A DNA stretch of 26,315 nt from a virus, in IMG/VR virus record IMGVR_UViG_3300005435_000045, positions 1 to 26,315 of that record, one strand, 5' to 3'. Shown here in pieces: positions 3,887 through 24,384 of the stretch. The position numbers and the translations under genes were made by a program. Below the pieces are notes generated by a model. That model had not been told where the DNA came from. It made no database searches and saw only the letters and a program-made list of their open reading frames with translations. Positions within the stretch are counted from its first letter, which is position 1. Every line of letters begins with the position of its first letter.

Positions 3887-4273
3887 TTACGGCTGGTCTC
3901 GGACCCAGTCCTGGCAGTCCTGCAGCTGGCTCACCGCGGACTGGTAGAGCACGCCCGCGGTGTTGTGCAGGGTCAGCAAGATCTGGGCCTGGCGGTCGTC
4001 AATGGCGACGATGCGTCTGGACTTGGCGGTGATCTCGGCGAAATCAGGAGGCGGCTGACGCTGCAGGTCTATCTCGAGCTGGATGCGCTCCAGCGACAGC
4101 GCGTCGTACTCAGCGGTGATGAACGGCAGGTGATCCGGTACCTGCAGCAGGCACAGGGTCGGCTTGGCTCGAAGCCCCGTGGGGGTCCGACCCAGCGTCC
4201 CAAAGCACCCGGAACTGAGGGTCAGCCATAGCGCTAGGACACACAACAACACGAGTCGCAGCAGCAGGCGCAT
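3887..4273 (-). CDS. Outer-membrane spanin subunit (Rz1-like lipoprotein)
   Basis: The product is a 128-residue lipoprotein. A hydrophobic signal (MRLLLRLVLLCVLALWLTL) is followed by a lipobox ending SSGC with the modified cysteine at residue 23. The mature part contains a proline pair and a helical region (LSLERIQLEIDLQRQPPPDF). The start at 4273 has GAGGAG nine bases upstream; longer upstream readings of the frame lack a signal peptide. It begins inside the preceding inner-membrane spanin gene in another frame and continues past its end, the classic Rz/Rz1 arrangement. The mature protein is longer than most Rz1 proteins. Together with its partner it would fuse inner and outer membranes in the last step of lysis. 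Confidence 0.75.
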   Translation of the reverse strand: MRLLLRLVLLCVLALWLTLSSGCFGTLGRTPTGLRAKPTLCLLQVPDHLPFITAEYDALSLERIQLEIDLQRQPPPDFAEITAKSRRIVAIDDRQAQILLTLHNTAGVLYQSAVSQLQDCQDWVRDQP

Positions 4274-21023: not shown

Positions 21024-21272
21024 CTAGTCGGTCAGCAGCTGGATGAGCTTCTTGCTCTTGAGCGCGACCTTGTTGTCGATCATCCAGCGGCCCAGGTTGT
21101 CATCGACCTGGGCCATGCCATCCACGAACGTCACGGTGAACAGCTGCGGCACCTTGTCGCCCTTCTCGTTGTCACGCATGAACGCGGTGTTCTCGGGGTT
21201 CTTGGTCCCCGGCGTGAGACGGATGGTGTGCTTGCCCTTCTGCTGCTTCTCGTGCGGCGAATAGACTTTCAT
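21024..21272 (-). CDS. Small protein after the capsid gene, unknown (82 aa)
   Basis: The 82-residue product (MKVYSPHEKQQKGKHTIRLTPGTKNPENTAF...) is basic and beta-rich, with FTVTFVDGMAQVDDNLGRWMIDNKVALKSKKLI in its second half. I do not recognise it; such proteins often sit between capsid and connector genes in contractile phages. I chose ATG 21272 over 21278 because the Shine-Dalgarno CCGGGAGA (21285-21278) would run into the earlier ATG, leaving no spacing. That binding site is exactly complementary to the two hairpin loops found just upstream. Confidence 0.75.
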   Translation of the reverse strand: MKVYSPHEKQQKGKHTIRLTPGTKNPENTAFMRDNEKGDKVPQLFTVTFVDGMAQVDDNLGRWMIDNKVALKSKKLIQLLTD

Positions 21273-21290
21273 GTTCATCTCCCGGAAATA

Positions 21291-21313
21291 GAAAAGCCGC
21301 GCAACGGCGCAGC
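21291..21313 (-). terminator. Rho-independent terminator after the capsid gene
   Basis: On the minus strand GCTGCGC-CGTT-GCGCGGC is followed by TTTTC. The stem is 7 bp with one G-T pair and a tetraloop. It lies between the branched RNA structure and the Shine-Dalgarno sequence of the next gene, and would reduce transcription past the capsid gene. Confidence 0.65.
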
Positions 21314-21333
21314 AACGCTCCCGGCGAAATAGG

Positions 21334-21395
21334 GCCAGCCCCGACCTGCCGGGAGACAGGTACAGCCCGTGCCGGGAGACACGGGTGGGGCTGGC
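21334..21395 (-). promoter_or_regulatory. Three-way-junction RNA with twin identical loops
   Basis: A 9-bp outer stem (21334-21342 with 21387-21395) encloses two hairpins. One has a 5-bp stem (21344-21348/21357-21361), the other a 6-bp stem (21366-21371/21380-21385). Both loops are the same eight bases, TCTCCCGG in the mRNA sense. That sequence is the exact complement of CCGGGAGA, the Shine-Dalgarno region of the downstream gene at 21272 and of other genes here. The element lies 26 bases past the capsid stop. A role in translation or transcript stability is inferred. Confidence 0.6.
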
Positions 21396-21421: not shown

Positions 21422-22411
21422 TTAGTGCTGGACGCACACCACGGCATGGGCGTAGCTCGGGCCCTTCGCGACCGGCGCATCGAACAGCACCGACACGAAC
21501 TGGCCGTTGAGGTTGCCCACCAGGCCGAGCTCGAACAGGCGCGGCTTGGGGTTCTGGGTCTCGCCGCTCACGTAGAAGATCTTGAGCATGTCTTCGGTGG
21601 TGATGACGGCGAAGTAGTTGGTCTGGCCAGCCGGGGGCGCGGAGAAGCCGAACGCCGAACCGGTGCTGCTGGGCAGATACGGGTCGGGGATGATCGGCAG
21701 CTTGCCGGCCTGGGTCTGGATGGACAGGACCTTGACGCCCGCCACCACCTCGGTCTCGTTGAGCTGGAAGTGGTTGGCCTTGGCTTCCTGGTCGATGAGG
21801 TCCGCCAGGATGGGGTTGACGTAGATCGCGCTCGGACGCACGTCGAAGGTCGTGTTCGCCATCATCGTCGCGACCTGAGCCTTCAGGCCGTCGATGATGC
21901 TGGTGCCGCTCACCAGCACGCTGGTCTGCGTGATCTGGGTGAGCAAGCCCACGTACTGCGCGGTGGTCGGGGTCACCAAGCTGGTGTCGGTGCCGTTCCA
22001 CAGCGCCGCAGCCGAGACCACCACCACGCCGTTGATGACGTCTTCGACGTCCTGCGCGACGATGGAGGCGAACTGGCCCTGCTGGCGGGTCACATCACGG
22101 TCGAATAGCGTGATGTTGGTCTGGTTGGCGATGGCCTTGATGACGGCCGAACGCTCGACACGGGTCGGCGTCGCCGGCGTCGGGCTCAGCGCGTTCTGGG
22201 TGGTCTGGAAGGTGCCCTGGGCGATGGCCGTCTGCTCGAAGTAGCGGGTCGGCTGACCGGTGGCGGGTACGTGCTGGATGCGCTCCAAGGCGATGGACTT
22301 GCGGCGCACCAGGTCCGTGATCTCGTTCTCGTAGCGGTTGGTCTCGATCGCACCGGGGCCGAGGAAGTCGGCACTGGCGCTGATGGAGTCCAGGAAGCGA
22401 GCGTCTTTCAT
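21422..22411 (-). CDS. Major capsid protein (HK97 fold)
   Basis: The 329-residue protein is placed after the protease-scaffold gene and before connector genes. It has a long N-arm/E-loop region (NRYENEITDLVRRKSIALERIQHVPATGQPTRYFEQTAIAQGTF), an alpha-rich P-domain part (DVEDVINGVVVVSAAALWNGTDT), and the late segment TTFDVRPSAIYVNPILADLIDQEAKANHFQLNE typical of HK97-like capsids. The protein ends with a beta-rich A-domain and a conserved GLVGNLNGQFVSVLFDAP. AAGGA ten bases upstream supports the start. It is followed by a structured RNA and a terminator, consistent with strong, separately tuned expression. Confidence 0.88.
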   Translation of the reverse strand: MKDARFLDSISASADFLGPGAIETNRYENEITDLVRRKSIALERIQHVPATGQPTRYFEQTAIAQGTFQTTQNALSPTPATPTRVERSAVIKAIANQTNITLFDRDVTRQQGQFASIVAQDVEDVINGVVVVSAAALWNGTDTSLVTPTTAQYVGLLTQITQTSVLVSGTSIIDGLKAQVATMMANTTFDVRPSAIYVNPILADLIDQEAKANHFQLNETEVVAGVKVLSIQTQAGKLPIIPDPYLPSSTGSAFGFSAPPAGQTNYFAVITTEDMLKIFYVSGETQNPKPRLFELGLVGNLNGQFVSVLFDAPVAKGPSYAHAVVCVQH

Positions 22412-23130: not shown

Positions 23131-23901
23131 GTCGATCTCCGCGTCGGCTTTGGCCGACAAAGATGTTGATGTATAGGCCGCATCCTTTTTCTTGAGGATG
23201 GCAGCACCAGTGAAAATCAAGCTCTCGACAGTCAAAACCGGCGCATCCATGGAAGCGATCAAGGCACGTTTGACTTCATAGCTGAAGCCAAGCTCGTCCT
23301 TGTGCTTTTGGATGTAAGCGACCTGCTCTGGGAAGTCGGAACCGTAGAGGAAACCTTCGATCTGAAACTCGTCGCCAACCACGTCAGCACCGGCGATGAT
23401 GCCGAGCTTCTTCGTTACGTCGTGGCCGTTGAATGCGTCCGTGAAGTCCACGCCCATCCCAAGGATGGACGGTATGGCGGCCTTGGCAGCGGCTGCTGTG
23501 ATGACTACGAGCTTGCCGTTGCTGCCCTCAGGCGGCTTGTCGCTGGGCCTGTCCAAGAAGCAGAGCACGCCCTTGAACGGAATCTTGTTGGGATGGCCTT
23601 CGGTCTCAGGGACCGCAAGGCTCATCGCCCGGAAAGCCATTCCCTTGATGGTGTGCCAGTCGCTGGTGTCGATGCCAAGCTCTTTGGCGCGTTCCAGGAT
23701 CCGATGACGCGCATCCTTGCGCTCTTCATCGTTCAGGCCTTGCGTGCGGTCGACCATGTCCCAGGCCATCTGGACATGCTTCTTGTCCTCGACTTCAAGC
23801 TGATCGCCTTCGCCGGTATTGCGTATCGGCAGCTTCTTTTTTCCCGGGACTGCATAGTCCTCGGGTTTCAGCTGGGCACGGCGCTCACTGGTAAGGGCCA
23901 T
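22486..23901 (-). CDS. Prohead protease fused to scaffold
   Basis: The 471-residue protein has three parts. Residues 1-80 (LKPEDYAVPGKKKLPIR...) resemble a DUF6582-type N-terminal module. Residues about 90-235 form a prohead-protease-like domain: IPFKGVLCFLDRPSDKPPEGSNGKLVVI, a candidate catalytic GHD (159-161), and VVGDEFQIEGFLYG...KDELGFSYEVK. From about 250 the chain is helical, charged and Ala/Lys/Glu-rich, as in scaffolding proteins. Scaffold guides shell assembly and the protease then cleaves it. GAGGA five bases upstream supports the start. The catalytic serine is not certain from sequence. Confidence 0.78.
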   Translation of the reverse strand: MALTSERRAQLKPEDYAVPGKKKLPIRNTGEGDQLEVEDKKHVQMAWDMVDRTQGLNDEERKDARHRILERAKELGIDTSDWHTIKGMAFRAMSLAVPETEGHPNKIPFKGVLCFLDRPSDKPPEGSNGKLVVITAAAAKAAIPSILGMGVDFTDAFNGHDVTKKLGIIAGADVVGDEFQIEGFLYGSDFPEQVAYIQKHKDELGFSYEVKRALIASMDAPVLTVESLIFTGAAILKKKDAAYTSTSLSAKADAEIDMTKEELESLFAAAEKKMADRIEAAVAEALKKGETINAGSVLHKVKKHSDTLRSCAAAMEADGIGMHNTGGHVHLLRRMADNMEAEASKGSLPSYYNSGSDFHASAQPSEADLKAAAEKQAETIKAAVTAAVEPLKTELADLKAKAFDKATPPERKTLPASIQQLVDKGHLKLDAAADSKVSASDLDKALTAAGITSNSQRIAFKTELAAAGRLA

Positions 23902-23967: not shown

Positions 23968-24384
23968 TCAGAGCAGGGATTTGACGCCCGCCACGAACTT
24001 CTGGATCTCCGGCGAGGCTTCCTGCTCCAGCCGCTTGCAATGCGCCACCAGGCCACCGAGGTGGCTCTCCAGGCTCACGAGCCAGGAGTGCAGGTCGGTC
24101 TTGGCGGCCTGTTCTGCCGCCGAGATCTCGCTCTGCAGGTGCTGCATGAACGTCTGCGGCTCCGCTTCCTCTTCCGAATCCGCTTCCGGAGAAGCGGGTG
24201 CCGCTGAAGCCGGAGCCTCGGGCTCGGGCGTAGCGGCCGTCACCGCGGCTGCAGGGGCCGGCTCGGCGGTCGCTGCCTCCGAGTTCTGTTCCGCAGCAGG
24301 AGCGGCCGAGGCGGCTGCGTTCTGCTCGTCGGAAGCATCGGCTGCAGCCGGCGGCTGGTCGTTGGGGGTCGGTTTCTTGGCCAT
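23968..24384 (-). CDS. Ala/Pro/Glu-rich head-region protein, unknown
   Basis: The 138-residue product has a low-complexity N-terminal two thirds dominated by Ala, Pro and Glu, with no strong fold expected (NDQPPAAADASDEQ, PEPEAPASAAPASPEADSEEEAEP). A helical C-terminal third follows (FMQHLQSEISAAEQAAKTDLHSWLVSLESHLGGLVAHCKRLEQEASPEIQKFVAGVKSLL). I do not recognise it. Position between a structural head protein and the protease-scaffold suggests a head-assembly or virion role. CCGGGAGG eight bases upstream gives the start; a terminator follows. Such disordered acidic segments can be scaffold-like or surface-exposed. Confidence 0.72.
   Translation of the reverse strand: MAKKPTPNDQPPAAADASDEQNAAASAAPAAEQNSEAATAEPAPAAAVTAATPEPEAPASAAPASPEADSEEEAEPQTFMQHLQSEISAAEQAAKTDLHSWLVSLESHLGGLVAHCKRLEQEASPEIQKFVAGVKSLL

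Follow-up and report, generated by a model that had tools for sequence, protein, structure and literature searches.

A branched RNA between a phage capsid gene and its terminator, with a loop complementary to the ribosome binding site of the next gene

The window analysed here is a 26,315-base IMG/VR contig of an uncultured bacterial phage, the late genes of which are carried by the minus strand. One of these codes for an SU10-type major capsid protein, which matches both Pfam PF17236 SU10_MCP (E=2.2e-5, 24.6 bits for a cutoff of 24.1) and PHROG 1328 major head protein. The next gene encodes a protein of 82 aa for which no Pfam or significant PHROG match was found; proteins of 72-110 aa (MKVY...V.F..G.A.V...L) that follow the capsid gene across the family are its homologues. 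The sole close relative found, IMGVR_UViG_3300037258_000332 (hereafter L121), codes for a capsid protein that is 98% identical. An in-frame ATG at 21278, overlapping the ribosome binding site (RBS) of the 82-aa gene, reads ACG in L121, and the gene therefore most likely starts at the ATG at 21272. Moreover, the gaps of the two phages (149 and 145 bases) differ by indels that break the frame, which makes coding within the gap unlikely. A second terminator-like hairpin (23950-23927, minus strand) precedes a gene starting at 23901, so that, with the one after the capsid gene, such sites flank this region on both sides. On the plus strand, two small genes at 528-1121 resemble a HigB toxin/HigA antitoxin pair, the second being ~45-52% identical to plasmid HigA family antitoxins.

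Table 1. Features of the capsid gene and the region downstream, in window coordinates.
Feature	Position	Strand	Remarks
Major capsid protein gene, SU10-type	21422..22411	-	Upstream of the branched element; Pfam PF17236 SU10_MCP, PHROG 1328
P1 stem, 5' arm GCCAGCCCC (21395-21387)	21387..21395	-	Predicted fold; 9 bp with the 3' arm; same in L121
P1 stem, 3' arm GGGGCTGGC (21342-21334)	21334..21342	-	Predicted fold; same in L121
Hairpin P2 with loop 1 TCTCCCGG (21379-21372)	21366..21385	-	Arms CCCGTG 21385-21380 and CACGGG 21371-21366; L121: same stem, loop TCTCATC
Hairpin P3 with loop 2 TCTCCCGG (21356-21349)	21345..21360	-	Arms CCTG 21360-21357 and CAGG 21348-21345; complement of the next RBS; stem and loop same in L121
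ATTTCGCCGG, predicted local partner of the RBS part CCGGGAGAT around the terminator	21321..21330	-	Minimum-energy fold; rival masking helix
Intrinsic terminator hairpin GCTGCGC-CGTT-GCGCGGC, then TTTTCTATTT	21296..21313	-	L121: one U.G replaced by C-G
RBS CCGGGAGA of the 82-aa gene	21278..21285	-	Same in L121
Next gene, 82 aa	21024..21272	-	After the capsid gene in most relatives; family unassigned

Read along the late strand, the capsid gene is followed by a 9-bp stem (P1) enclosing two hairpins (P2 and P3) with loops UCUCCCGG, then by an intrinsic terminator, the RBS CCGGGAGA and the 82-aa gene (Table 1). This branched shape is the minimum-energy fold of 21410-21260 (z = -3.6 relative to dinucleotide shuffles), in which the 8-base loops are partly closed by U.G and C-G pairs around a UCCC tetraloop; the full opening of one such loop costs a computed ~4.2 kcal/mol. 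The first-pass annotation of this DNA had described the stem and its two hairpins with identical eight-base loops, and all of its minus-strand coordinates proved correct. The perfect complementarity that it reported between the loop and the RBS of the next gene holds base by base, and the CCGGGAG that it placed at 21324-21318 is present, as is a terminator hairpin between the element and the RBS (21313-21296 plus a T-rich tail). No second copy of the branched element was found in the 26,315-base window.

The terminator is of the intrinsic (rho-independent) type, with 7 bp, six of them GC pairs, ahead of its TTTTCTATTT tail, and is kept in L121. The strand ATTTCGCCGG, with which part of the RBS is predicted to pair locally, overlaps the middle CCGGGAG and has ATTTTCCGG as its L121 counterpart. 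Folding predictions leave hardly any RBS base unpaired in the studied phage and also pair the GGGAG core of the RBS in L121; such a local fold already hides the RBS without the loops, which may thus be unnecessary for masking. The 8-bp duplex between loop 2 and the RBS is worth -14.6 kcal/mol, and opening the loop and the RBS costs 4.2 and 6.0 kcal/mol, respectively, leaving a net ~-4.4 kcal/mol that excludes the penalty for a pseudoknot that engages an 8-base loop over its full length on a 4-bp stem. No sigma-70-like promoter was found near or in front of the element.

A chance origin of the complementarity between loop and RBS is unlikely. When the 136-base gap was dinucleotide-shuffled 20,000 times, two copies of TCTCCCGG never arose and one copy did so in 0.6%, and the strength of the gap-RBS duplex was matched by 1% of shuffles in the studied phage, bearing in mind that the element had been noticed before the statistics were run and that these are tests after the fact. 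Five occurrences of this 8-mer lie on the two strands of the window, against 1.3 expected, and three of them are inside the element. When the RBSs of 26 window genes were compared with the 131 bases upstream, that of the gene starting at 21272 alone beat 200/200 shuffles, an internal control by which GC content alone becomes an unlikely cause.

Comparison with L121 separates the parts of the element that are constrained from those that vary. Within the three-way junction, 38/38 paired bases are identical and, when the terminator is included, paired positions agree at 51/52 and unpaired ones at 64/84 (Fisher p = 4e-4); the single paired change, in the terminator, turns a U.G into a C-G and keeps the pairing. 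In the capsid gene, 33/177 fourfold-degenerate sites differ (~19%), which sets the neutral rate between the two phages. Near-invariance of the paired positions relative to both the unpaired and the neutral sites argues for constraint on the stems, as judged from two sequences and with P1-P3 free of compensatory change. The loops behave differently from each other: loop 2 and the RBS are both identical in L121, and loop 1 reads UCUCAUC, which leaves no match to the RBS; the middle CCGGGAG reads CCGGGGG. Consequently, the identity of the twin loops, which had been put forward as the regulatory feature, is not kept, and one loop-RBS match is conserved. The eight unchanged bases of loop 2 are by themselves weak evidence given the ~19% neutral change. 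The gap-RBS duplex of L121 (-24.4 kcal/mol) was equalled by 0/200 shuffles. A search for another RBS to which loop 1 of L121 could have been retargeted gave no convincing target. The proposal that twin loops sequester the next RBS is thus supported in part, by loop 2 and not by loop 1.

Beyond L121 the junction disappears. A scan with the capsid protein returned 36 viral loci, of which L121 is close and the others share 50-63% identity; the distant relatives are devoid of the junction, and many have, in this position after the capsid gene, an ordinary terminator. The gap-RBS duplex test reached p < 0.05 in 0/20 of them, which led us to reject RBS masking as a family-wide habit. Conservation in related phages, the check that the first-pass annotation had suggested, is therefore partial: the stems and loop 2 persist in L121, loop 1 has changed, and further out the junction is absent. 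L121 was the only further carrier recovered by capsid-protein scans of viral and genome contigs, by the exact hairpin pattern, by the downstream proteins and in phage records, and a capsid-protein search of 399 genomes added no other. A covariance model run over 50 sources, 12 named records and 398 genomes found no further member, the 398-genome search being one without a positive control. Among the matches listed for twin TCTCCCGG hairpins elsewhere in viral contigs, only short stems within tandem repeats were seen by eye. Other relatives have different material at this place. After the capsid stop, L138 (from about 3970) has an unrelated ORF that by eye looks like an HNH homing endonuclease, and the corresponding gap of L149 holds an unrelated ORF resembling, again by eye, a GIY-YIG homing endonuclease. 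In the distant relative L153 (about 3985-4060), CTCTCCCGG directly follows the capsid stop and the RBS is TCCGGAGA, an imperfect match that is no better than in shuffles.

Mu-gpT-DE RNA (RF03012) is a small RNA motif downstream of a phage major head gene. Its model was rejected as an explanation of the element, with 10.9 bits for a threshold of 49 and a match that lies at the RBS, off the junction; anti-hemB RNA (RF02837) was discarded likewise (16.6 bits vs 49.5, E=0.085). At gathering score, no Rfam family was found in the window or in seven related loci, and weaker matches were at chance level. The c4 antisense RNA of phages P1 and P7 has its target downstream in the same transcription unit. 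Its loops are thought to be complementary to the region around the target RBS (review PMC12197685), and the studied element shares with it the character of a phage RNA with a loop complementary to an RBS, here an 8-base perfect complement with loop 2 and the RBS conserved and co-transcription assumed. In contrast to c4, which belongs to an immunity operon, the element is located after a capsid gene and before a terminator, and no c4 family appeared among the Rfam matches down to E=10. UCCC-bearing loops are also aimed at G-rich RBS sequences by LhrC, RsaE and RNAIII (PMC4132741); UCCC motifs predicted to be unpaired number two in the window element and one in L121, and genes with a CCGGGAG RBS are present in both phages. 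These three are host-encoded sRNAs tested in the laboratory, whereas the present element is known from sequence alone and has one conserved loop. The Burkholderia double-hairpin RNAs (RF02278) and the Neisseria NmsR sRNAs are characterised by a pair of hairpins or by unpaired CU-rich segments that are complementary to RBSs (PMC5688073), with no enclosing stem as far as that paper describes, unlike the hairpins nested in P1; RF02278 gave no match to the element at the Rfam threshold. If it works, the element would do so in the manner of c4-type, UCCC-loop or double-hairpin CU-rich RNAs, a likeness in principle and not a family assignment. Its last part parallels the intrinsic terminators after the capsid genes of many relatives, which have the same position and form; those of relatives other than L121 come without the branched element ahead.

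The first-pass annotation had also envisaged action in trans on further phage genes that use this RBS. Four window genes, starting at 24384, 21272, 16593 and 3866, have CCGGGAG as their RBS; no RBS heptamer is more frequent in the window, and the overlapping TCCGGGA (4 genes) equals it. The L121 contig holds orthologues of the genes at 24384, 21272 and 16593, and 3/3 keep CCGGGAG, with diverged flanks at two. Across ~19 kb of this contig, sense-strand copies of the motif are confined to these three RBSs and its complement to loop 2; since 2.3 and 2.5 copies, respectively, are expected by chance, the total counts are ordinary and it is the location that stands out. The capsid transcript that ends at the terminator, or a piece cleaved off it, could be a small RNA whose CUCCCGG loop(s) would pair with the RBSs of the four genes, and precedents with C-rich loops exist. 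CCG is moreover rare before RBS-like GGAG in other GC-rich phage loci (8/294 sites). Against this stand the post hoc choice of the motif, the recurrence of RBS heptamers in some of 40 other phage loci (one reaches 4, nine reach 3), the conservation of extended RBSs over a similar length at other genes, the lack of a promoter found in front of the element, and the change of loop 1. The evidence in favour is weakly circumstantial, and we regard such a regulator as unlikely. A broader version is quite improbable, in which the capsid 3' end would regulate assembly stoichiometry, with CUCCCGG loop(s) pairing in cis and in trans with the CCGGGAG that several late genes share as RBS heptamer, so that abundant capsid mRNA lowers the translation of a set of minor structural and assembly proteins.

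Although they share an operon, phage structural genes have to deliver their products in widely differing quantities. The explanation that we tentatively prefer, while giving it somewhat less than even chances, is that the element makes up the 3' end region of the capsid transcript, where a terminator and RBS masking helped by the conserved loop 2 would keep the next gene low. The intrinsic terminator, preceded by the branched RNA, would stop most capsid-gene transcripts; in the read-through RNA, co-transcribed with the capsid gene, the RBS of the 82-aa gene would be masked by loop 2, through a loop-to-strand pseudoknot, or by the local ATTTCGCCGG strand. Together, masking and termination would leave the capsid protein in excess over its neighbour, and loop 1 would be either an additional copy peculiar to the studied phage or one that L121 has lost. 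This proposal draws on the constrained stems, on a loop 2 and an RBS that are unchanged, on a complementarity that is exceptional in both phages, on a favourable net energy and on the terminator being kept. It is weakened by the count of two junction sequences, the change of loop 1, the small net energy and a local helix that already hides the RBS.

Nearly as likely is a passive role, in which the branched RNA and the terminator just end the abundant capsid mRNA and shield it from 3' exonucleases, the RBS match being coincidental. The match could have arisen by chance from the GC richness of the sequence and a short stretch duplicated locally (TGTCTCCCGGCA occurs twice), terminators after the capsid gene are common among the relatives, local pairing conceals the RBS with no need of the loops, and the stems are constrained at the same time as unpaired bases, loop 1 included, change at about the neutral rate. 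What such a role accounts for poorly is that the complementarity is exceptional in both phages and that loop 2 was fully kept while there were changes in loop 1 and in the junction. The conserved stems and the position of the element directly before the terminator would also suit an RNA that binds a protein or acts in antitermination, whose recognition by RNA polymerase, or by a protein of the phage or its host, would control terminator read-through. This we consider very unlikely, as it leaves the loop-RBS complementarity unexplained and has neither an RNA family match nor an identified candidate protein on its side.

If the element also acted in trans through the shared RBS word, a phage late operon would harbour a small RNA regulon, of which no description was found in the open-access papers searched. 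Should the favoured explanation, masking at the 3' end of the capsid transcript, be true, the RNA of a coat gene that masks the RBS of its neighbour would be a simple way to set the ratio of two proteins.
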